From Kaistella soli (GTDB taxonomy: Bacteria > Bacteroidota > Bacteroidia > Flavobacteriales > Weeksellaceae): a stretch of 64,000 bases of DNA. The position numbers were made by a program, and so were the translations under genes. Under the pieces are notes generated by a model that was not told the DNA's origin, searched no databases, and saw only the letters and a list, made by a program, of their open reading frames with translations. Shown in pieces: positions 6,028 through 16,643 of this stretch (positions within the stretch are counted from its first letter, which is position 1; each line of letters starts with the position of its first letter). The stretch covers positions 372,001-436,000 of the forward strand of contig NZ_JAHOPF010000002.1 in the NCBI RefSeq assembly GCF_019038595.1, read 5' to 3'.

Positions 6028-7929
6028 ATGAAAGCGCAAGAAATGTTCCGCGAAAGTGTGGAAAACAAAGAACAGTTTTGGGCAAACCAAGCCGAAAATA
6101 TAGAATGGTTAAAAAAACCCACAAAAATTCTTTCCGACGACGGAGAAAATTACCCTACCTGGTTTGCTGACGGCGAACTCAATACCTGTTATCTAGCACT
6201 GGACAAACATATCAAAGACGGGTTTGGCGATCAGGTTGCTATTATTTATGATTCACCGGTAACCGACAGAATTTTGAAATTCACTTATAATGAAGTGAGA
6301 GACCAGGCTGCAAAACTGGCAGGAGGCTTAAAGAAATTAGGCCTGCAGAAAGGCGATACAGCGATCATATATATGCCGATGATTCCACAGTCTGTGTTTG
6401 CGATGCTCGCATGTGCAAGGTTAGGAATTACCCATTCTGTAGTTTTTGGAGGTTTTGCGCCAACGGAACTCGCGATAAGAATTGATGACTGCAGTCCGAA
6501 AGCCATTATCACCGCCAGTTCAGGGATGGAAGTTTCACGCAGAATTCCTTACCTGCCGTTTGTAAGAGAAGCCATCGCGATTGCAGAACATAAACCCGAA
6601 CATATCGTGGCCTATGACAGAAAGCTTTTGGGAAATAAAATAGATTTTGAAAACGAAAAAGATTTAACCGATTTCGAAAAACTGATCACAGAATCGGAGC
6701 CGGCTGACTGTGTTCCCGTAGAATCCACGCATCCGCTGTACATCCTTTACACTTCCGGAACTACGGGAAAACCTAAAGGCGTGGTGCGCGACAACGGCGG
6801 TCACGCGGTAGCAATGAAGTTTGCCATTAAAAACATTTACGGTGCACAGGAAGGTGAAACATTCTGGGCAGCTTCCGATATCGGCTGGGCAGTAGGACAC
6901 AGCTTTACGGTTTACGGACCTTTGATCAACAGAAACACCACCGTCATCTTCGAAGGAAAACCCATCGGAACGCCTGATGCAGGAACTTTCTGGCGGGTTA
7001 TTCAGGATCATAAGGTTTCGGTCATGTTTACGGCTCCTACAGCAATCAGGGCGATAAAGAAAGAAGATCCCAATGGCGAATTCGTCAAGAAATATGATTT
7101 GTCATCCTTAAGGACTCAGTTTCTTGCCGGAGAAAGATGCGATGTGGCAACACTGGACTGGTATGAGGAATTTGTTGGAGTGCCGGCGATTGATCACTGG
7201 TGGCAAACCGAATCAGGCTGGCCAATGCTCGGTTTGATGCCTGGTGTAGAAGACGTAAAAATTAAGAGAGCATCTGCGGGAAAACCCATTCCGGGATATG
7301 ATATTAAAATTTTCAGTGAAGAAGGCTACGAACTTGAAGCGCACCATGAAGGCTACCTTGTGATTAAACTTCCGCTTGCGCCGGGAGCGATGACCGGCAT
7401 TTGGGGCGATCCTGAACGTTTCAAGTTTGGTTATCTTTCAAGGTTTCCAGGTTACTATTTCTCCGGAGACGGGGCCATTAAAGATGAGGACGGTTATGTT
7501 TTTGTCACCGGACGCGTGGATGATGTGATCAATGTTGCAGGGCACCGGCTATCCACTGCAGAAATGGAAGAAGTCGTAGCTGCACATAAAGACGTTGCCG
7601 AATGCTGCGTCGTCGGAATTGATGATGAACTGAAAGGTCAGGTTCCTTTTGCAATCGCGGTGCTGAAATCCGGATCCAAAGCGGATCAGGAACAGCTGGA
7701 AAAAGATATAGTTGCGTTGGTAAGAGAAAAAATCGGAGCCGTCGCCTGTCTGAAAAACGCGATGGTAGTGAACCGTCTTCCCAAAACACGTTCAGGTAAG
7801 ATCTTAAGAAAACTCATCAGAACAATGCTAGACGGAAAGGAATATCAGATGCCTTCTACCATTGATGACGAAAGTATTGTAGAAGAACTGCAGCTGATGA
7901 TGGATGTGTATAAAAAAGAGAAAATTTAA
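6028..7929 (+). CDS. prpE: Acyl-CoA synthetase, propionyl-CoA synthetase-like
   Basis: A 633-residue AMP-forming synthetase (carboxylate + ATP + CoA to acyl-CoA). The adenylation P-loop is ILYTSGTTGKPKGVVRDNGG near residue 240, the WWQTESGWP motif near 390, and the catalytic lysine is K591 in TRSGKILRK. Length and the RDNGG and GWP variants fit the PrpE/ACSS3 branch better than Acs. It starts 46 nt after the receiver gene in the same orientation, so it probably belongs to the sensor operon. The preferred acid (propionate or another short acid) is not certain. A structured RNA-like element lies downstream, before acs. Confidence 0.82.
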   Translation: MKAQEMFRESVENKEQFWANQAENIEWLKKPTKILSDDGENYPTWFADGELNTCYLALDKHIKDGFGDQVAIIYDSPVTDRILKFTYNEVRDQAAKLAGGLKKLGLQKGDTAIIYMPMIPQSVFAMLACARLGITHSVVFGGFAPTELAIRIDDCSPKAIITASSGMEVSRRIPYLPFVREAIAIAEHKPEHIVAYDRKLLGNKIDFENEKDLTDFEKLITESEPADCVPVESTHPLYILYTSGTTGKPKGVVRDNGGHAVAMKFAIKNIYGAQEGETFWAASDIGWAVGHSFTVYGPLINRNTTVIFEGKPIGTPDAGTFWRVIQDHKVSVMFTAPTAIRAIKKEDPNGEFVKKYDLSSLRTQFLAGERCDVATLDWYEEFVGVPAIDHWWQTESGWPMLGLMPGVEDVKIKRASAGKPIPGYDIKIFSEEGYELEAHHEGYLVIKLPLAPGAMTGIWGDPERFKFGYLSRFPGYYFSGDGAIKDEDGYVFVTGRVDDVINVAGHRLSTAEMEEVVAAHKDVAECCVVGIDDELKGQVPFAIAVLKSGSKADQEQLEKDIVALVREKIGAVACLKNAMVVNRLPKTRSGKILRKLIRTMLDGKEYQMPSTIDDESIVEELQLMMDVYKKEKI

Positions 7930-8008
7930 TAACTGTAAAATTTTTAAACAGGGTAATTTTATTTTAAATTTAAACCACCAATTTTCAACGGAAGCCCGAA
8001 ACGTAACT

Positions 8009-8092
8009 AGCCCTGATTGAAGTGGAAATCCCACAGCAAGCGCTGGCAAAAGCCCGGGAGCGAGGAATTGCAACGAAAAGCAGGATTAAGCT
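8009..8092 (+). ncRNA. Structured intergenic element, copy 1
   Basis: The sequence can fold as a closed element. AGC (8009-8011) pairs with GCT (8090-8092) and CCTG (8012-8015) with CAGG (8081-8084). Inside lie hairpin GTGG-AAATC-CCAC (8022-8034) and hairpin CGCTGGC-AAAA-GCC with a bulged CGGG and closing AGCG (8041-8062). A second copy with the same conserved ends lies on the minus strand at 43,293-43,360. The pair T8014-A8082 is replaced there by G-C, a compensatory change. It resembles a dispersed flavobacterial RNA family, possibly Flavo-1, but that identity is from memory and unverified. It ends 34 nt before the acs start codon and could be part of the acs leader or a separate RNA. Confidence 0.55.
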
Positions 8093-8126
8093 CCAAAAAA
8101 AAATTAATAATAAAACTAAAAATATT

Positions 8127-10034
8127 ATGAAGAATTATTTCATTGATGATCTTCCAGATTATTTCAAACAGTATAAAAAATCCATTAAAAACCCGAAAAA
8201 ATTCTGGGATAAAATTGCGGACGAAAATTTTGTCTGGTACCAGAGATGGAGCAAAGTGGTGGATTATGACATGCAGGAAGCCAAAATCAAATGGTTTAAA
8301 AATGCCAAACTCAACATCACCAAAAACTGTATTGACCGGCATCTGAATACCCGCGGCGACAAAACCGCAATTATCTGGGAACCCAACGATCCTAAAGAAG
8401 AGGCGCAACACATCTCCTATTCCGAACTGCGCGACAGGGTCTGTAAAATGGCCAATGTACTCCGTGATTTGGGTATTGAAAAAGGCGATCGTGTCTGTAT
8501 TTATTTACCGATGATTCCTGAACTCGCGGTAACGATGTTGGCGTGTGCAAGACTTGGAGCGGTGCATTCCGTCATTTTTGCAGGTTTTTCGGCTTCTGCG
8601 GTCAGTTCGCGGGTTAACGACTGTGAGGCAAAACTGATTATCTGTTCCGATGGAAGTTACCGCGGTAACAAAGCGATTGATTTAAAAGGAATCATTGATG
8701 AAGCGGTAGAAAAATGCCCAACAGTTGAAAAAGTTTTGGTGGTAAAAAGAACCGGCGGCGAAGTGAAAATGAAGGAAGGCCGCGATTTCTGGCTGGAACC
8801 GCTGTATGAAAAGGCACCGGCAGATTTTATTTCGGTCATTATGGATGCTGAGGATCCGCTCTTTATCCTTTACACTTCAGGCTCCACCGGAAAACCTAAA
8901 GGTATGCTGCATACAACAGCAGGTTATATGGTTTACACGGCCTACACTTTTAAAAATGTATTTAATTACAGAGAAAACGATATTTACTGGTGTACCGCAG
9001 ATATTGGCTGGATCACAGGACATTCCTATATTCTGTACGGTCCGCTGGCAAACGGTGCAACGACGGTTATTTTTGAAGGTGTACCTACTTATCCTGAACC
9101 CGACCGTTTCTGGGAAGTGATTGAAAAACATAAAGTAACCCAGTTTTATACAGCTCCAACAGCGATCCGCTCTTTAGCGAAAGAATCTTATGAATGGGTT
9201 GAAAAGCACGATTTATCGAGTTTGAGAGTCATTGGTTCTGTTGGTGAACCAATTAATGACGAAGCCTGGCACTGGTACAACGACCATGTCGGGAAGAAAA
9301 AATGCCCGATTGTTGATACCTGGTGGCAAACCGAAACCGGTGGAATTATGATTTCCCCAATTCCTTTTGTAACGCCGACAAAACCGACCTATGCAACACT
9401 TCCGCTTCCGGGAATTCAACCCGTTTTGATGGATGACAAACGTAATGAAATTACCGGAAATCAGGTGGACGGAAATTTATGTATCCGTTTTCCGTGGCCG
9501 GGAATTGCCAGAACAATTTGGGGAGATCATCAGCGGTATAAAGAAACCTATTTTACGGCGTTCCCCGGAAAATATTTTACAGGCGACGGTGCGTTGCGTG
9601 ATGAAGTGGGCTATTACAGAATTACCGGCCGTGTAGACGACGTTATTATTGTTTCCGGTCATAATTTAGGAACAGCTCCGATTGAAGACAGCATCAACCA
9701 GCATCCTGCCGTTGCAGAATCTGCGATCGTTGGTTATCCGCATGACATCAAAGGAAGTGCGCTTTACGGGTACGTCATTCTGAAAGACACCGGTGAAAGC
9801 CGCGACCGCGAAAATTTAAGAAAAGAAATCAATCAGGTGATCAGCGATACAGTGGGACCTATCGCCAAACTCGATAAAATTCAGTTTGTGTCTGCACTTC
9901 CGAAAACCCGCTCAGGTAAAATCATGAGAAGGATTTTGAGGAAGATTGCGGAGGGAGATTTCGCGAATTTCGGTGATACTTCTACCCTTTTGAATCCTGA
10001 AATTGTGGAGGAAATTAAGAACGAGAAAATTTAA
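8127..10034 (+). CDS. acs: Acetyl-CoA synthetase
   Basis: A 635-residue AMP-forming acetyl-CoA synthetase that converts acetate, ATP and CoA to acetyl-CoA in the cytoplasm. It has the adenylation motif FILYTSGSTGKPKGMLHTT near residue 255, the WWQTETGG motif near 400, GYYRITGRVDDVI near 500, and catalytic lysine K598 in TRSGKIMRR, whose acetylation inactivates Acs in other bacteria. The ATG at 8127 is preferred: the frame is open to a GTG at 8022, but that lies inside a hairpin of the intergenic element and would add 35 basic, non-conserved residues. Close linkage to the symporter-kinase system suggests acetate-responsive control. Confidence 0.93.
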   Translation: MKNYFIDDLPDYFKQYKKSIKNPKKFWDKIADENFVWYQRWSKVVDYDMQEAKIKWFKNAKLNITKNCIDRHLNTRGDKTAIIWEPNDPKEEAQHISYSELRDRVCKMANVLRDLGIEKGDRVCIYLPMIPELAVTMLACARLGAVHSVIFAGFSASAVSSRVNDCEAKLIICSDGSYRGNKAIDLKGIIDEAVEKCPTVEKVLVVKRTGGEVKMKEGRDFWLEPLYEKAPADFISVIMDAEDPLFILYTSGSTGKPKGMLHTTAGYMVYTAYTFKNVFNYRENDIYWCTADIGWITGHSYILYGPLANGATTVIFEGVPTYPEPDRFWEVIEKHKVTQFYTAPTAIRSLAKESYEWVEKHDLSSLRVIGSVGEPINDEAWHWYNDHVGKKKCPIVDTWWQTETGGIMISPIPFVTPTKPTYATLPLPGIQPVLMDDKRNEITGNQVDGNLCIRFPWPGIARTIWGDHQRYKETYFTAFPGKYFTGDGALRDEVGYYRITGRVDDVIIVSGHNLGTAPIEDSINQHPAVAESAIVGYPHDIKGSALYGYVILKDTGESRDRENLRKEINQVISDTVGPIAKLDKIQFVSALPKTRSGKIMRRILRKIAEGDFANFGDTSTLLNPEIVEEIKNEKI

Positions 10035-10060
10035 TCATCCAAAAGATTTCATCAATAACT

Positions 10061-10088
10061 AAAACCTTACGGAAACGTGAGGTTTTTC
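10061..10088 (+). terminator. Rho-independent terminator after acs
   Basis: AAAACCTTAC (10061-10070) pairs with GTGAGGTTTT (10077-10086), loop GGAAAC, followed by a T-rich stretch. It ends the acetate operon. Confidence 0.8.
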
Positions 10089-10167
10089 TTTTGAAATGGC
10101 AAAAGGTGAATTACATTTTTAACTATTTTATATTGCTGATTTACAGTAATTCACTACATTTATTTCA

Positions 10168-11304
10168 TTGAAAAATCCAGATTTTAATGCGGACGTCATC
10201 ATTATTGGTGGAGGTTTGGCAGGTTTAACAGCAGCGATTCACCTTTCCAAAACAGGGTTTCGCGTCATTGTTATTGAAAAAAACTCCTACCCGAAACATA
10301 AAGTCTGCGGCGAATATATCTCCAATGAAGTACTGCCCTATTTCAAATGGCTGGAACTTCATATTGAAAGTTTAAATCCCACACACATCAATTTCCTGCA
10401 TTTCTCTTCTCAGTCAGGGAAATCTCTGAAAACAAAACTGCCGCTTGGCGGTTTCGGAGTGAGCCGTTTTACTTTGGATCATGCGCTGTATTTAAAAGCT
10501 GTTTCACAAGATTGTATCGTCCTGGAAGATCAGGTGAATGAGGTCGATTTTAATCATGATTTTTTTACTGTTCATCTTTCATCAGGCAAAATACTTACTT
10601 CACCGACGGTTTTGGGTGCATTTGGAAAAAGATCCAACTTAGATCAAAAAATGAATAGAGATTTTTTCCATCAAAAATCACCATGGTTAGCGGTGAAATC
10701 CCATTATAAAGGTGATTTTCCGGATGATGCTGTTGGCTTACATAATTTTAAAGGCGGTTACTGCGGCGTTTCCAAAGTGGAAAACAACGTCCTCAACATT
10801 TGTTATCTCACCAGTTTTGAATCGTTTAAAAAATTCAAAAACATTGAAGATTTTCAGAGAAAAATACTGGAAAGAAATCCTCATCTGAAAAATATTTTAA
10901 AAAATTCAGATTCCATTTTTGAAAAACCTTTAACCATCAGCCAAATTTCTTTTGAAAAGAAAAACAATGTTGAAAACCATATTCTGATGACTGGCGATAC
11001 GGCCGGATTAATTCATCCGCTTTGCGGAAACGGGATGGCAATGGCGATCCACAGTGCAAAACTGGCTTCCGAATGTGTTTCGGATTTTCTGAATCAAAAA
11101 ATTTCCAGAGAAGAAATGGAAAAACAATATCAAACCTTCTGGAATGCAAATTTTAAAAAAAGATTGGTCTACGGCAGGTTTTTGGGCAAAATTTTGGAGC
11201 ATTCCGTTTTATCGGAAATTTTAACCAAAATGATTACTTTTATTCCTTTTATGTTACCTTTAATTATCAGAAAAACGCATGGGAATGAAATTGTGATGAA
11301 ATAA
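10168..11304 (+). CDS. FAD-dependent oxidoreductase of the type III PKS cluster
   Basis: A 378-residue flavoprotein with an N-terminal Rossmann motif GGGLAG (residues 14-19), an ENS-type ribose-binding acid after the second strand (VIEKNSYP), and a second FAD motif GDTAGLIHPLCGNG near 275, as in the geranylgeranyl-reductase/PHBH-like monooxygenase superfamily. The start is TTG at 10168, since no ATG fits before the FAD motif. It is the first gene of a tight operon, 2 nt from the methyltransferase. By analogy with SrsC of the srsABC phenolic-lipid operon of Streptomyces griseus, it may hydroxylate or oxidise the aromatic product of the type III PKS. It could instead reduce a prenyl or polyene chain. 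Confidence 0.75.
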   Translation: MKNPDFNADVIIIGGGLAGLTAAIHLSKTGFRVIVIEKNSYPKHKVCGEYISNEVLPYFKWLELHIESLNPTHINFLHFSSQSGKSLKTKLPLGGFGVSRFTLDHALYLKAVSQDCIVLEDQVNEVDFNHDFFTVHLSSGKILTSPTVLGAFGKRSNLDQKMNRDFFHQKSPWLAVKSHYKGDFPDDAVGLHNFKGGYCGVSKVENNVLNICYLTSFESFKKFKNIEDFQRKILERNPHLKNILKNSDSIFEKPLTISQISFEKKNNVENHILMTGDTAGLIHPLCGNGMAMAIHSAKLASECVSDFLNQKISREEMEKQYQTFWNANFKKRLVYGRFLGKILEHSVLSEILTKMITFIPFMLPLIIRKTHGNEIVMK

Positions 11305-11306
11305 CG

Positions 11307-12017
11307 ATGGCATTAGACACTACTTACAGAACAGATCTGGAGGAATCCATGGATGATTTTTCGTTGGATAACGACGACTTAACAACCGCTCTGGATGATA
11401 TTGCAAAAATCAACCGGTTTCTGGGTGGGAATGCTGTAACTTTAAATGGAGTAAAATATCTTTTGAAAGAACTTCCTGAAAGTTCCGAAATAACCATTAT
11501 GGATTTTGGCTGCGGAAGCGGTGACATGTTGAGAATGCTTTCAAAATATGGTGCTGCAAACAATTTGAAATTTAATTTAATTGGTATTGATGCCAATGAA
11601 GCAACTATTCGGCATGCAGAAAACTGTTCGGCAGATTATAACGACATCATCTATCTGGCGGAAGATATATTTAAATATGATTTCTCCCAGTACAAAATCG
11701 ATATTGCGGTGATGACGCTTACGTTACATCATTTTAAAGACGAGGATATTTTAAAAATCCTTGGAACGGTCAATAATCTGGTAACAAAAGGCACCGTCGT
11801 GAATGATTTACAGAGAAGCAAAGTTGCGTACCGGCTTTTTCAGCTGATTATCTTTATCTTCAGGCTTGACAAAATGACAGCTGATGACGGTTTAATATCT
11901 ATTTTAAGAGGTTTCAAAAAAGCGGATCTCGAAAAATATGCTTCAGCATTAAATTTAAAAAAGTACCGGATTGCCTGGAAATGGGCATTCCGCTACCAGT
12001 GGATTATCGAAAAATAA
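11307..12017 (+). CDS. Class I SAM-dependent methyltransferase
   Basis: A 236-residue methyltransferase with SAM motif I at residues 64-74 (IMDFGCGSGDM), an acidic residue closing strand 2 (GIDANE), and the post-motif TLTLHHFKDEDI. The C-terminal region has a hydrophobic helix (LFQLIIFIFRL), suggesting contact with a lipid-like substrate. It lies between the flavoprotein (2-nt gap) and the type III PKS (43-nt gap). Such trios make O- or C-methylated alkylresorcinols or pyrones in other bacteria (SrsB, BpsB). The actual acceptor is unknown. Confidence 0.8.
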   Translation: MALDTTYRTDLEESMDDFSLDNDDLTTALDDIAKINRFLGGNAVTLNGVKYLLKELPESSEITIMDFGCGSGDMLRMLSKYGAANNLKFNLIGIDANEATIRHAENCSADYNDIIYLAEDIFKYDFSQYKIDIAVMTLTLHHFKDEDILKILGTVNNLVTKGTVVNDLQRSKVAYRLFQLIIFIFRLDKMTADDGLISILRGFKKADLEKYASALNLKKYRIAWKWAFRYQWIIEK

Positions 12018-12060
12018 AATCAAAAAATGAGAGGAAAAGCTTCCTACCTCGCAATGATCT

Positions 12061-13113
12061 ATGAGTGTAAAAATAATTTCGGTTGCTAAGCAACTTCCAA
12101 AATATTCGCGTAAAACGGCAGAAATCTTACCGTTTTTAGATCTGTGGCTTGATGGGCAGGAAAGCCGGTTTGTCAGGAAAGTGAAAAAAATATTTGAAGG
12201 CGCGATGGTGGACGAAAGATACTCCATTATGGATCCGGCTGAAGTTTTCACTGCCACTTCTTTCGAAGATAAAAATGAAATTTATGTCCGCGAAGTCGTC
12301 ATTCTTGGCGAACAGGTTCTACAGAAATCCCTGGAAAAAGCAAACTGGGATCCCAAGACTTTAGATTATATTATCACCGTAAGCTGCACCGGCATTATGA
12401 TTCCTTCCCTCGATGCCTATCTGATTAACAAATTGAATTTGCGCCAGGATATTGTCCGTTTGCCTGTAACAGAAATGGGCTGTGCTGCAGGAGTTTCGGG
12501 AATTATTTATGCGAAAAATTTCCTTCAGGCCAATCCAGGGAAGCGCGCTGCAGTTGTCGCCGTGGAAAGCCCGACCGCTACTTTTCAACTGGATGATTTT
12601 TCGATGGCGAATGTAGTAAGTGCCGCTATTTTCGGTGATGGTGCTGCATGTGTGCTTCTTTCTTCTGATGAAAACGCTGAAGGTCCGGAAATTCTAGCCG
12701 AAGAAATGTATCATTTCTATCATAACGAACACATGATGGGTTTTAAACTCACCAATTCCGGACTGCAGATGATTCTGGATATCGAAGTTCCGGATACCAT
12801 CGCTGAACATTTCCCTAATATTGTTCATCCTTTTTTAGCCAAACAAAATTTAGAAATTAAAGATATCAATCACCTTATTTTTCACCCAGGCGGAAAAAAA
12901 ATTGTGCAGATGGTAGAATCCCTTTTTGCGGATTTGGATAAAAACATTGATGCTACCAAAGAGATTTTGCGCCTTTACGGCAACATGTCGAGTGCAACGG
13001 TGCTTTATGTTCTGGAAGAAATAATGAATCAAAAACCGCAGAAAGGCGAGAAAGGTTTAATGTTGAGTTTCGGTCCCGGATTTTCTGCACAAAGAGTTTT
13101 ACTGCAATGGTGA
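12061..13113 (+). CDS. Type III polyketide synthase (chalcone synthase family)
   Basis: A 350-residue ketosynthase-fold enzyme. The catalytic triad of the chalcone/stilbene synthase family is complete: Cys141 in TEMGCAAGVSG, His275 in LIFHPGGKK and Asn308 in YGNMSSAT, followed by the FGPGFS motif near the C-terminus. These enzymes extend a starter acyl-CoA or acyl-ACP with malonyl units and cyclise it to resorcinols, pyrones or phloroglucinols in the cytoplasm. The downstream ketosynthase, dehydratase, enoyl reductase and ACP suggest a long-chain acyl starter made on site. Its stop overlaps the next gene by 7 nt. The product cannot be predicted from the triad alone. Confidence 0.92.
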   Translation: MSVKIISVAKQLPKYSRKTAEILPFLDLWLDGQESRFVRKVKKIFEGAMVDERYSIMDPAEVFTATSFEDKNEIYVREVVILGEQVLQKSLEKANWDPKTLDYIITVSCTGIMIPSLDAYLINKLNLRQDIVRLPVTEMGCAAGVSGIIYAKNFLQANPGKRAAVVAVESPTATFQLDDFSMANVVSAAIFGDGAACVLLSSDENAEGPEILAEEMYHFYHNEHMMGFKLTNSGLQMILDIEVPDTIAEHFPNIVHPFLAKQNLEIKDINHLIFHPGGKKIVQMVESLFADLDKNIDATKEILRLYGNMSSATVLYVLEEIMNQKPQKGEKGLMLSFGPGFSAQRVLLQW

Positions 13114-13904
13114 GAAGATTTGAAAATAAAAACTACTGGACGCTGATTCTGGGCGGAAGTTCCGGACTTGGCTTGGCGTCTGCAAAAAAATTGGCTTCCG
13201 AAGGCATGAATATCTGTATTATTCACAGAAATTCCCGTGCAGAAATGGAATTAATTAATAATGAATTTTCTTTAATTAAAAATGAAGGCATTCAATTTTT
13301 AAGTCTGAATAAAGATATTTTAAATCCCAATCATCAGCAGGAAATTATCACAGCACTGAAAACTGCTTTAGGATCTGACGGAAAAATTCGCTGTCTTTTG
13401 CACAGCATTGCCAAAGGAAATTTAAAACCGATGACCGGATCTGAAACCGAAAGTCTTTCAGCCGATGATTTCAGTATAACACTCCACGCCATGGCTACCA
13501 GTCTGTACGAATGGACGAAACTTATTTTTAACGCAAAGTTTTTTGCTGAAGATGCCCGGATTCTTGCTTTTACCAGCGAAGGAAGCACCAAACCCATGAC
13601 TCATTACGCTGCCGTTTCTGCTGCGAAAACTGCTTTGGAAGCTATCTCGAGAAATATTGCTCTGGAATTCGCGCAGTTCGGAATACGGTCGAACTGTATT
13701 CAGGCTGGCGTTACTGATACACGATCTTTACAGATGATTCCCGGAAGTGAAAAAATTAAAGAATTTACCTTAAAAAGAAATCCGTTCAAAAGATTAACCC
13801 AAGCGGAAGACGTTGCGAACGTTGTAAGTTTATTATGTCAGGACGAAGCTTCGTGGATTAACGGCTGTGTCATTCCTGTGGATGGCGGCGAACATTTAAA
13901 CTGA
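13107..13904 (+). CDS. SDR enoyl-ACP reductase-like protein (FabL/FabI type)
   Basis: A 265-residue short-chain dehydrogenase with N-terminal cofactor motif GGSSGLGLA (residues 16-24) and HSIAKG at 99-104, as in FabI/FabL. The catalytic pair is Tyr167 and Lys174, spaced Y-x6-K as in enoyl-ACP reductases rather than Y-x3-K of ketoreductases such as FabG. This argues that it reduces an enoyl thioester. It overlaps the type III PKS by 7 nt and the dehydratase gene by 1 nt, so it is clearly part of the cluster. It probably completes a local chain-building cycle together with the dehydratase, ketosynthase and ACP; no ketoreductase is encoded here. Confidence 0.8.
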   Translation: MVRRFENKNYWTLILGGSSGLGLASAKKLASEGMNICIIHRNSRAEMELINNEFSLIKNEGIQFLSLNKDILNPNHQQEIITALKTALGSDGKIRCLLHSIAKGNLKPMTGSETESLSADDFSITLHAMATSLYEWTKLIFNAKFFAEDARILAFTSEGSTKPMTHYAAVSAAKTALEAISRNIALEFAQFGIRSNCIQAGVTDTRSLQMIPGSEKIKEFTLKRNPFKRLTQAEDVANVVSLLCQDEASWINGCVIPVDGGEHLN

Positions 13905-14332
13905 TGAATACCGCAGAAATTTTTTATAAACTCCCCTACAGCACTCCATTTTTATTTGTGGATGAATTGCTCAGCGTTGACGAAAACGGCGTAACGGGAA
14001 CGTTCCGGTTTGATGAAAATTCAGACTTTTATAAAGGTCATTTTAAAAATCATCCAGTCACACCGGGCGTTATTTTAACCGAAACTATGGCCCAGATCGG
14101 CGTGGTCTGCTTAGGTATTTTTTTGTGCGGAAATAAGGTAAATCCTGAAACTCAAATCGGGTTAACATCCACCGAAATTGAATTCTTAAAACCTGTTTTT
14201 CCCAATGAAAAAGTCACCGTGATTTCTGAAAAAATCTACTTCCGCTTCAATAAACTGAAATGCAAAGTGAAGATGCTGAATGAAAGGAAAGAAACGGTTT
14301 GTGAAGGTACGATTGCGGGCATTATTAAATAG
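13904..14332 (+). CDS. FabZ-like 3-hydroxyacyl-ACP dehydratase
   Basis: A 142-residue hotdog-fold protein. Catalytic His46 lies in KGHFKNHPVTPG and Glu60 in ILTETMAQIG, matching FabZ/FabA family active sites. It would dehydrate 3-hydroxyacyl-ACP to enoyl-ACP in the cytoplasm. Its ATG shares one base with the preceding stop (TGATG), a translational-coupling arrangement. In this cluster it most likely acts on acyl chains feeding the type III PKS rather than in housekeeping fatty acid synthesis, which is inferred from position. Confidence 0.85.
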   Translation: MNTAEIFYKLPYSTPFLFVDELLSVDENGVTGTFRFDENSDFYKGHFKNHPVTPGVILTETMAQIGVVCLGIFLCGNKVNPETQIGLTSTEIEFLKPVFPNEKVTVISEKIYFRFNKLKCKVKMLNERKETVCEGTIAGIIK

Positions 14333-14339
14333 ATTAAAA

Positions 14340-15614
14340 ATGGAAAGAAGAGTCGTTATCACCGGATTAGGCGTTGCATCTCCCATCGGAATCGGTCTGG
14401 AAGATTTCAGAACGGCTTTAAAAGAAGGCCGCTCCGGGATCCGTTTTGATCAAAACTTAGCTGATCTGCAGTTTTCCTGTCAGGTCTCAGGAACACCGCC
14501 CATTGTTCCGGAAAAATTAACTCAGTATTTCACAGATTTAGAATTGCGGAATTTCAGTTCCACCGGAATAATGTATGGCGTTATCGCAGGTTTGGATGCC
14601 TGGAAAGACGCGGGGTTATCACCTTCTCAGGATGAAAATCCTGATTGGGAAAGCGGAACCGTTTTTGGAACCGGAACCTCGGGAATTGAAAAATTCAGGG
14701 AAAGTATTTATAAAATTGATGCTTTACAGACCCGAAAATTGGGAAGCACTGCCGTTTCACAGACGATGAACAGCGGAATCAGTGCTTATCTGGGCGGAAA
14801 ATTAGGATTGGGAAATCAGGTTACGACCAATTCTTCTGCATGTACAACGGGCACAGAAAGCCTGCTGATGGCATTTGAAAGAATTAAATCAGGTAAAGCA
14901 AAACGCATGCTTGCGGGAAGTACGAGCGATTCCGGACCTTATATCTGGGCGGGTTTTGATGCGATTAAAGTATGCAATTTTAAATCGAATGAAGAACCTG
15001 AAAAAGCATCGCGACCAATGAGCGCTTCCGCTGCAGGTTTTGTTCCCGGAAGCGGTGCCGGTGCATTCGTGGTCGAAGATTTGGAATCTGCGTTGGCGCG
15101 GAAAGCAAAAATCTACTGCGAAATATTGGGAGGAAATCTGAACAGCGGCGGACAGCGCGGCGGCGGAAGCATGACCGCACCCAATTCTGGGGCAGTTCAG
15201 AAATGCGTTAAAGATGCCCTTTCAGATGCCGGAATTCGTGCAGAAGATATCGACTATATCAGCGGGCATCTCACCGCGACTTCCAAAGACAGCACTGAAA
15301 TTCAAAATCTCGCGGAGGCATTAAACCGGTATGGAAAAGATTTCCCCTACATCAATTCATTAAAAGCATTAACCGGACACTGTCTGTCAGCATCAGGAAG
15401 TATCGAAGCTGTGGCTGCCGTTTTGCAGCTGGCTGAAAATTTTGTGGCTCCCAACATCAATTGTGAAGATCTGAATCCTGAAATCACGGCGGTGATCGAT
15501 CCTGAATGTATTCCGCAGCAGTTGATTACAAAGGAAATCAATATTGCCGCAAAAGTAAGTTTTGGTTTTGGCGACGTGAACGGATGTATTATCTTTAAAA
15601 AATATTCTCAATAA
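14340..15614 (+). CDS. Beta-ketoacyl-ACP synthase (KAS I/II type)
   Basis: A 424-residue condensing enzyme. Catalytic Cys168 lies in SSACTTGTES, His310 in SGHLTATSKDS and His347 in ALTGHCLSASG, giving the C-H-H triad of KAS I/II enzymes. The segment after the first histidine is unusual: most family members have HGTGTxxND, here HLTATSKDS. That suggests a specialised enzyme rather than housekeeping FabF. The ATG at 14340 (MERRVVITGLG) is preferred over an upstream in-frame ATG at 14280 that lies inside the dehydratase gene. It lies 7 nt after the dehydratase and 14 nt before the ACP gene. Confidence 0.88.
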   Translation: MERRVVITGLGVASPIGIGLEDFRTALKEGRSGIRFDQNLADLQFSCQVSGTPPIVPEKLTQYFTDLELRNFSSTGIMYGVIAGLDAWKDAGLSPSQDENPDWESGTVFGTGTSGIEKFRESIYKIDALQTRKLGSTAVSQTMNSGISAYLGGKLGLGNQVTTNSSACTTGTESLLMAFERIKSGKAKRMLAGSTSDSGPYIWAGFDAIKVCNFKSNEEPEKASRPMSASAAGFVPGSGAGAFVVEDLESALARKAKIYCEILGGNLNSGGQRGGGSMTAPNSGAVQKCVKDALSDAGIRAEDIDYISGHLTATSKDSTEIQNLAEALNRYGKDFPYINSLKALTGHCLSASGSIEAVAAVLQLAENFVAPNINCEDLNPEITAVIDPECIPQQLITKEINIAAKVSFGFGDVNGCIIFKKYSQ

Positions 15615-15628
15615 ATTTTATTAAACCC

Positions 15629-15883
15629 ATGAGCAGAGAAGAAAACATTGCCAAACTCAAAGAGATTGTAAAACCCTATGTAAAGGATGCACCGGCACTT
15701 GAAAATCTTACGGAAGACACCGATTTTATTAACGATTTGAATATCAATTCTGCAAATCTTGTGGACGTGATTCTGGATGTAGAAGAAGTTTTTGACATCG
15801 AAATCGACAACGAATCCATGGAAAAAATGCGCGACGTAAAATCTGCTTTAGCGGTAATTGAAGGGAAACTTGCTGAAAATTAA
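15629..15883 (+). CDS. Acyl carrier protein of the type III PKS cluster
   Basis: An 84-residue acidic ACP. The phosphopantetheine serine is Ser41 in DLNINSANLVDVIL; the usual DSL triplet is replaced by NSA, with L44 and D46 conserved nearby. A dedicated carrier protein next to ketosynthase, dehydratase and enoyl reductase implies a separate acyl chain made in the cluster. Last gene of the operon. Confidence 0.88.
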   Translation: MSREENIAKLKEIVKPYVKDAPALENLTEDTDFINDLNINSANLVDVILDVEEVFDIEIDNESMEKMRDVKSALAVIEGKLAEN

Positions 15884-16158
15884 TTTTGATCTGTGTAGAT
15901 TATTTTCACTGGAAAACCTCCCATTGGTCTCTTTAATTTGACCACGTAAAAATAAATCTGAGTTTCTATTTTCACTCACAATCAATATTTTATCAGAATT
16001 TCAGATTATGAGCATTAAGAATCAGTTAAAATTTAATAAAGCCTTACTGAAGTTTCATTTTTTATTAAAAAAAACCGCAGTAAAACTTGCACTGATTACC
16101 TCTTCATTTGCCAATAAAAATGGGTGATAAAACTGTTTTTAAGTAATTATGTTATGCA
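15884..16158. other. Intergenic region after the PKS cluster
   Basis: AT-rich, no convincing gene. A weak inverted repeat TGGTC-N10-GACCA lies at 15,925-15,944 without a T-run, so it is not a clear terminator. The right end carries the promoter of the next gene. Confidence 0.5.
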
Positions 16159-16166
16159 TACATTTG
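16159..16166 (+). promoter_or_regulatory. -7 box TACATTTG for the stress-protein gene
   Basis: Perfect match to the Bacteroidota -7 consensus TAnnTTTG. It lies inside the 5' extension of the longest open frame (ATG 16,149) and therefore supports the ATG at 16,203. Confidence 0.7.
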
Positions 16167-16202
16167 TGTAGGCAAAAGCCGCTAATAATAAATCAGTTTA
16201 CA

Positions 16203-16643
16203 ATGAAAACAACAGTTGTAGGTTTATTCTCAAGTTGTGAGGAGGCGATCAAAGCAGCAAAAAATTTAAAAAACGAAGGTTATAAAATTTTAAAACTTGC
16301 CTGTAAAGATTTGTCCGCCAAAAGAAAAAGCCTATTTGAGGAGTTTTTCGGTTCATTCAGTACTTCATTTGGTTTAAAAACAGAACAGCCAACTGACGAC
16401 AGCTCCGAAAATTTAGTTGCAGGAATTTTCTCAAAAAATGTTGAAAAATTAGAAAATGCAAAACGTATCTTAAATGATTCCGGCGCGATACATGTATTTT
16501 CATTTGAAAATATGTCCAAAGCAGAATCAAAATCAAAAGCTTTCATCATGAAAATGATAGGACTTCGTGCAAAATCTGAAATTCAGCAAACACCTTCAAT
16601 AAAACATCATATTTATCACGAAGGTATGTCAATGATGACTTAA
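16203..16643 (+). CDS. YflT-like general stress protein
   Basis: A 146-residue soluble protein starting MKTTVVGLFSSCEEAIKAAKNLKNEGY, which resembles the N-terminal domain of general stress protein 17M (YflT) family members: a ferredoxin-like fold in which a parameter-like 'VVGLF' strand is followed by an AxxAxxxL helix. A second half-repeat appears at about 66-100 (LVAGIFSKNVEKLENAKRILN, GAIHVFSF). The C-terminus is basic and His/Met-rich (SIKHHIYHEGMSMMT). The start is set by a -7 box at 16,159-16,166. It is monocistronic. Molecular function is unknown. Confidence 0.65.
   Translation: MKTTVVGLFSSCEEAIKAAKNLKNEGYKILKLACKDLSAKRKSLFEEFFGSFSTSFGLKTEQPTDDSSENLVAGIFSKNVEKLENAKRILNDSGAIHVFSFENMSKAESKSKAFIMKMIGLRAKSEIQQTPSIKHHIYHEGMSMMT

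Follow-up and report, generated by a model that had tools for sequence, protein, structure and literature searches.

Does a bacterial type III polyketide synthase (PKS) that lies next to fatty-acid-type genes have a small fatty-acid line of its own, or are the two neighbours by chance? This question is raised by seven genes at positions 10168–15883 of a 64,000-nucleotide stretch of DNA from Kaistella soli (assembly GCF_019038595.1, contig NZ_JAHOPF010000002.1, positions 372,001 to 436,000, forward strand; hereafter the window, with positions counted from its first letter), which belongs to a genome of 3.1 Mb. A sequence-only reading had described the seven as one cluster in which a flavoprotein, a methyltransferase and the PKS are joined by an enoyl reductase, a dehydratase, a ketosynthase and an acyl carrier protein (ACP), the latter four possibly building an acyl chain for the PKS. 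As far as genomes can tell, the fatty-acid half is dedicated to the PKS unit. We consider it reasonably probable that the locus is a flavobacterial type III PKS cluster whose own type II fatty-acid-type cassette feeds a starter to the PKS, with methylation and oxidation following.

The gene set and its company in other genomes

All seven open reading frames (ORFs) listed for the window are intact and lie on the + strand, and Pfam and NCBIfam place them in the families named by the sequence-only reading. The front half consists of a flavin adenine dinucleotide (FAD)-dependent oxidoreductase (FPO; 10168–11304, 378 aa, TTG start; Pfam FAD families over cut-off), a class I S-adenosylmethionine (SAM) methyltransferase (MT; 11307–12017, 236 aa; Methyltransf_25 at 48.9 bits against a cut-off of 27) and the type III PKS (12061–13113, 350 aa), in which both the N- and C-terminal Chal_sti_synt domains exceed their cut-offs and a Cys141-His275-Asn308 triad is present. 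The fatty-acid half follows with a FabL-like short-chain dehydrogenase/reductase (SDR), a putative enoyl-ACP reductase (ENR; 13107–13904, 265 aa; adh_short_C2 at 145 bits), a FabZ-like 3-hydroxyacyl-ACP dehydratase (DH; 13904–14332, 142 aa; FabA-like domain at 49 bits against a Pfam cut-off of 23), a FabF/FabB-like ketoacyl-ACP synthase (KAS; 14340–15614, 424 aa from its likely start) and the ACP (15629–15883, 84 aa). The KAS ORF opens mechanically at 14280, within the DH gene; the ATG at 14340 is the likelier start, since several relatives have an open frame of only 423–426 codons in all, with a match of 422–424 aa. With this start, the gaps from gene 1 to gene 7 are 2, 43, −7, −1, 7 and 14 bases, so that the genes overlap or nearly touch, as had been claimed, apart from the 43-base gap ahead of the PKS gene. 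The earlier statement that the seven ORFs include no ketoreductase, thioesterase or transporter also holds by Pfam and NCBIfam.

We examined how these genes are distributed among genomes. In the genus, the PKS (>650 bits) was found in 21 of 36 genomes, and the same 21 carried both the KAS orthologue (>700 bits) and the ENR, each of which occurred additionally in genome G020 (58% and 59% identity, respectively). All 36 also had a FabF-like KAS with an identity of about 30% (seen as two partial hits in G021). Among 395 Bacteroidota genomes, the PKS subfamily (at least 67% identity) was found in 33, no other listed match exceeding 37% identity, and the KAS orthologue (E ≤ 1e-70) in all 33 and in 5 others. 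None of the seven sampled genomes from other genera of the window's family contained the PKS subfamily, which is therefore patchy. Each of the four cassette proteins comes from a family of fatty-acid enzymes, so that the KAS and ACP could conceivably work in housekeeping fatty acid synthesis and be here by chance, which the sequence-only reading had named as the case that would refute it. Such a role is very unlikely, because a separate FabF exists in 36 of 36 genomes of the genus. In fact, the data contradict it: presence of the set tracks the PKS, not the organism, and in the window genome a single further ACP exceeds the Pfam cut-off (AcpP), which adjoins FabF. The genome also has one FabG over cut-off and one phosphopantetheinyl transferase (PPTase) of the Pfam ACPS type. 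The earlier proposal is thus supported in part, in that the second half goes with the PKS.

Gene order was compared in the best 80 of 424 related stretches (at least 80% identity; hereafter named records) and in 15 distant loci fetched from the 33 PKS-positive genomes of the phylum sample. The nearest named matches to the window were a Flavobacteriia metagenome-assembled genome (MAG), with a PKS 97% identical, and Kaistella records (83–93%). FPO, MT, PKS, DH and KAS occurred together in all 80 named records and the ACP in 79, a contig end accounting for the other. Because one order was kept in 80 of 80, save for the presence of ENR or PPTase and the one contig end, the arrangement is far beyond chance; the genes were likewise linked and ordered in 15 of 15 distant loci. 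The earlier view that the genes form one operon-like unit is supported. Two versions account for nearly all named records: FPO-MT-PKS-DH-KAS-ACP-PPTase (65/80; Flavobacterium, one [Flexibacter] strain and records named only to family or order) and FPO-MT-PKS-ENR-DH-KAS-ACP (14/80; Kaistella, Halpernia, Frigoriflavimonas, one Chryseobacterium-named strain and one Flavobacteriia MAG), the remaining one being a Flavobacterium record that ends at a contig edge.

Catalytic residues were conserved as well. In structure-based alignments, which covered 25 of 81 sequences, the PKS triad was invariant (25/25), and the Cys motif was found in 96 of 96 PKS rows, so that the window PKS has both the domains and the Cys-His-Asn triad of a type III enzyme. 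In the KAS, NS(S/A)AC was found in 100 of 102 rows (the pattern caught another stretch in the remaining 2) and GHLT in all 102. Other patterns fitted less well: a DH pattern, which was too narrow, matched 8 rows, the KAS pattern K-x-x-TGH did not catch 58 of 102, two PKS patterns did not catch 3–4 of 96 and a general ENR pattern hit other stretches in some rows, so that we make no claim on these residues across rows. The window ACP contains an INSANL motif with the predicted attachment serine; this motif occurred in 92 of 102 ACP rows and some serine motif in 98, the 4 rows with none being L170–L172 and the housekeeping control L175.

Each half without the other

Relatives of the cassette also occur without this PKS. 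Six fetched loci of 19 kb (L103 and L168–L172) contained KAS relatives of 48–58% identity and no PKS. In L168 (7776–17566) and L169 (8155–17817), from two families of the class, an ENR-DH-KAS-ACP-PPTase set is divergent from genes for DarB, DarH and an ATP-binding cassette (ABC) transporter; DarB and DarH of L168 exceed their NCBIfam cut-offs, and L169 has the same genes at 61–75% identity, with 70–75% for DarB and DarH. This set, with a KAS 55% identical, thus adjoins genes of the dialkylresorcinol (darA/darB) or flexirubin kind. L170 and L171 contain DH-KAS-ACP and L172 ENR-DH-KAS-ACP, with glycosyltransferase family 2 (GT2) and weak GNAT matches beside the cassette in L170 and L172, the two that were scanned. 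In L103 (genome G020; 7903–11854), ACP-ENR-DH-KAS-PPTase-hexapeptide transferase follows glycosyltransferase genes in a polysaccharide locus that also has PGA_cap and EpsG genes. Five of these six genomes have a distant type III PKS (30–34%) elsewhere, and G020 has none above the level of FabH. A parallel to the PKS-free cassette of L103 is found in the O-polysaccharide genes wfpC-G of F. psychrophilum, where a dedicated ACP, accompanied by KAS, is predicted to carry a short acyl group, 3,5-dihydroxyhexanoyl (R1), to an acyltransferase (PMC6519341; this and all other articles are cited from excerpts); the likeness is one of description, and wfpC-G differs in having a ketoreductase and two KAS.

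The ENR travels with the KAS set. Beside this set lie various users of acyl groups, which fits an acyl chain made on the ACP and then handed on. We tentatively suggest, with somewhat less confidence than an even chance would warrant, that ENR-DH-KAS-ACP-PPTase may be a portable acyl-ACP supply module of Bacteroidota, paired with the type III PKS in flavobacteria, with DarB in other families and with acyl- or glycosyltransferases in surface-polymer loci. If so, the type III PKS of the window would be fed by a type II fatty acid line of its own, short only of a ketoreductase and a PPTase, and starters in Flavobacterium, where the ENR is lacking, would differ in saturation. In a KAS tree of 43 rows (window, 20 of the 80 named records, 15 distant loci, 6 PKS-free loci and one housekeeping FabF), the PKS-free rows fall among the PKS-linked rows; long branches meet and deep forks are unsettled, and on this tree we make no claim on the origin of the cassette.

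Conversely, parts of the front half recur elsewhere in the phylum. The PKS genes of L163 and L164 are paired with MT, L164 also having a FAD_binding_3 protein and a MatE transporter. FPO-MT-PKS triads with no cassette were found in other families (L160, L165, L166 and L167), the PKS being about 30% and the FPO 35–44% identical to those of the window. UbiA lies beside the triads of L160 and L167, which fits phenol or quinone tailoring. A third PKS group lies beside an ICMT-type methyltransferase in 6 of 6 scanned loci (L148, L150, L153, L154, L155 and L159) of its 12 rows; this pairing presumably resembles the BpsA/BpsB pair of Bacillus. In a PKS tree built from the window, 6 of the 80 named records, 9 of the 15 distant loci and 18 of 20 distant-PKS loci (L157 and L158 were left out, having no PKS ORF under the filter), the window subfamily, the triad group and the PKS-ICMT group formed three separate clades, with long-branch warnings.

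A candidate pathway and its alternatives

The genes, the co-occurrence of cassette and PKS, the cassettes near other acyl-using enzymes and the conserved PKS and KAS residues are all observed, whereas a direct hand-over from the ACP, the ring type, the chain, the order of tailoring and any biological role are inferred. In the pathway that we propose, the KAS, DH and ENR would make or modify an acyl chain carried by the dedicated ACP, which in many relatives may be served by a dedicated PPTase, and ketoreduction would be borrowed from the housekeeping FabG. The PKS would take the acyl-ACP directly as its starter, add malonyl-CoA units and close an aromatic or pyrone ring, most likely giving an alkylresorcinol. 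The MT and the flavin-dependent enzyme would then methylate and oxidise this product to a methylated phenolic lipid or quinone.

The PKS does not by itself point to one product class. The nearest solved chain to the PKS is Pks11 of M. tuberculosis, followed in fold by CylI, so that a pyrone maker and a resorcinol maker are both near; the model has a mean pLDDT of 67 and these fold ranks are soft. Phe228 is invariant in 25 of 25 aligned sequences, where Pks11 has Trp and CylI Leu, and is not diagnostic. The window PKS was rejected as DarB (22.9 bits against an NCBIfam cut-off of 550) and as DpgA, which is its best NCBIfam model yet reaches 166.3 bits against a cut-off of 425. For the FPO (pLDDT 83), the nearest folds are PltA, FasV, PqsL, PHBH and 3HB6H, and the model has the fold that flavin halogenases share with flavin monooxygenases of group A. 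Z is about 32–36 whether the FPO is compared with hydroxylases, with halogenases or with a GG-reductase-like protein, so that function is not assignable from the fold. The MT matches PRK06202 at 114 bits, below the cut-off of 243.

The sequence-only reading had likened the front half to Streptomyces SrsC/B/A. This comparison can be refined in that the window MT is a class I SAM enzyme (Methyltransf_25, PRK06202-like), SrsB being, as we assume, another kind of methyltransferase. To our knowledge, the Srs and Agq pathways have no ACP/KAS set of their own. By description, the Streptomyces SrsABC and Actinoplanes AgqA-type pathways likewise modify the type III PKS product further, with oxidation to a quinone or hydroquinone (PMC10896814). 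Because of the kind of MT, the hidABC-type operon of planctomycetes and cyanobacteria, in which the same three kinds of enzyme are adjacent, is a good analogue (PMC10896814), and MT-oxidoreductase-PKS operons are common in planctomycetes (58 of 96 PKS genes). There, partner genes, including the G. maris methyltransferase, led to one methylation, probably on carbon (PMC10896814). Compared by gene content, the window differs in its order, oxidoreductase-MT-PKS, and in having four to five additional fatty-acid-type genes. As for the hand-over, type III PKSs that accept ACP-bound starters include CylI and germicidin synthase (PMC8086630, PMC6274091). The cyanobacterial cyl pathway combines a free-standing ACP, CylB, with CylI, which is able to take ACP-bound chains (PMC8086630), but its elongation is by a type I PKS with halogenation, whereas the window has discrete fatty-acid-type enzymes. 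In Azotobacter, the type I fatty acid synthase ArsA passes an acyl chain to ArsB/ArsC (PMC6274091), a carrier-to-type III PKS transfer in which ArsA is multidomain and the window proteins are discrete and of type II. The koreenceine pathway of Pseudomonas (PMC6498172), a type II PKS pathway, was set aside as distinct from the window cluster.

Two other arrangements of the same enzymes have to be weighed. The PKS might use an ordinary acyl-CoA or AcpP-bound acyl group, as in hid-type systems, and the cassette might make another part, to be attached afterwards, much as flexirubin unites a dialkylresorcinol with a polyene. Triads without a cassette (L160 and L165–L167) agree with this, as does the expression of six planctomycetal PKSs, with pentadecyl- and heptadecylresorcinols as the products in C. 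glutamicum, where such a cassette was absent (PMC10896814), and the pairing of the cassette with DarB and the acyltransferase DarH in L168. However, no joining ligase or acyltransferase is found among the seven genes, and we regard a two-part product as rather improbable. The reverse order, in which a DpgA-like PKS supplies the ACP with a small aromatic or acyl starter for elongation by KAS, DH and ENR to an aryl- or polyene-type lipid, appears more doubtful still. In its favour, no NCBIfam model fits the PKS better than DpgA, and the KAS is FabF/FabB-like, an elongating type, but the DpgA score lies far under its cut-off, and the seven genes include no DpgB/C/D-like or CoA-ligase gene (an acetyl-CoA synthetase gene lies just upstream). 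A related cassette also stands without a PKS in the six fetched loci, with a distant type III PKS elsewhere in five of the six genomes. Moreover, release as a resorcinol or pyrone leaves no thioester to elongate, which is established chemistry.

Several observations also weigh against a cassette-made starter passed to the PKS. The DH, KAS, ENR and ACP all score under their NCBIfam equivalog cut-offs: the fabZ equivalog TIGR01750 gives 62.6 bits for the DH (cut-off 155.15), the FabF equivalog 272.7 for the KAS (493.75) and FabL, the best NCBIfam model of the ENR, 132.7 (328), and for the ACP even Pfam PP-binding reaches 20.5 against 20.8. Aligned with B. subtilis FabL (3oic), the ENR does have the Tyr-x6-Lys active site. 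The single SDR of the cluster resembles an enoyl reductase, so that no ketoreductase is present in it, and the window's own cluster lacks a PPTase. Additionally, the ENR is absent in 66 of the 80 named records. The cluster of L068, for instance, lacks it, and a search for copies elsewhere (E ≤ 1e-15) in 16 PKS-positive genomes of genus g4, which we take to be Flavobacterium, gave none above 33% identity; the ENR is therefore non-essential or replaced there. The triads show that a front half of this kind can exist without any cassette, Pks11 is an alkylpyrone maker, and the unrooted PKS tree, in which long branches meet, cannot say which group is nearer to the window subfamily. Finally, PKS-linked rows do not form one clade in the KAS tree, requiring 3 changes, at least 2 of them forced by well supported branches, although long branches make this unsure. 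With these points counted, direct feeding of the PKS by its cassette is still the account that we favour.

Variation, known occurrence and neighbouring genes

The sequence-only reading overlooked the PKS-free cassettes, the lack of an ENR in the Flavobacterium clusters examined and an eighth gene of many relatives, that for the PPTase. By BLAST, this gene follows the ACP in 65 of 80 named records and in 10 of 15 distant loci, and it is not found there in the Kaistella group. Pfam confirmed three of these (L136, L138 and L142), as well as the PPTase of L103. Of the distant loci, 5 have all eight genes, 5 lack the ENR and 5 lack a BLAST-recognisable PPTase. The simplest history would be an eight-gene ancestor from which some lines lost the ENR and others the PPTase.

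Type III PKS clusters in Flavobacteriaceae are already known as predictions: in an antiSMASH survey, they were the second commonest class after terpenes, with 9% of clusters (PMC7440613). No characterised product of this gene set was found in the titles and abstract starts listed by searches of the open-licence PubMed Central literature for such clusters and neighbouring topics, which is no proof of absence. The cluster looks like a hitherto unstudied version of a familiar type of lipid pathway, a maker of fatty phenols or pyrones paired with what appears to be its own small fatty-acid line, and, with 424 related stretches matched, many genomes should carry it. If our reading is right, it would be a genetically simple system, with a discrete ACP and enzymes feeding a type III PKS, in which the hand-over could be studied and parts swapped, and lineages with and without the ENR would offer a natural experiment on the part that the cassette plays in making the chain.

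In four records (L012, L016, L021 and L046), an ORF of 360–361 aa on the opposite strand sits between ENR and DH; its start is, we presume, reminiscent of old yellow enzymes. In the window, a 164-aa ORF (16149–16643) after the ACP gene, where many relatives carry the PPTase, has no Pfam or NCBIfam match; it has a 61% match in L003 and 26% matches in L012 and L021.

Upstream of the FPO gene lies acs, encoding the acetyl-CoA synthetase AcsA (8127–10034, + strand; TIGR02188 at 967 bits, over cut-off). A terminator-like hairpin (10061–10086, + strand), seen in a consensus scan only, lies between the two; chance alone would give 6.1 such sites in the region, where the scan gave 7, and the evidence for the hairpin is therefore weak. 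Of the 80 named records, 45, many of them from Flavobacterium, have acs upstream of the cluster within the flank examined, at an identity of at least 76%. Being a neighbour in these records, not in the others, and lying behind a possible hairpin, it was rejected as a cluster gene, and AcsA is probably a frequent neighbour rather than a pathway member. It is the second of two tandem AMP-forming synthetase genes (6028–7929 and 8127–10034) directly upstream on the same strand, which share about 39% identity.

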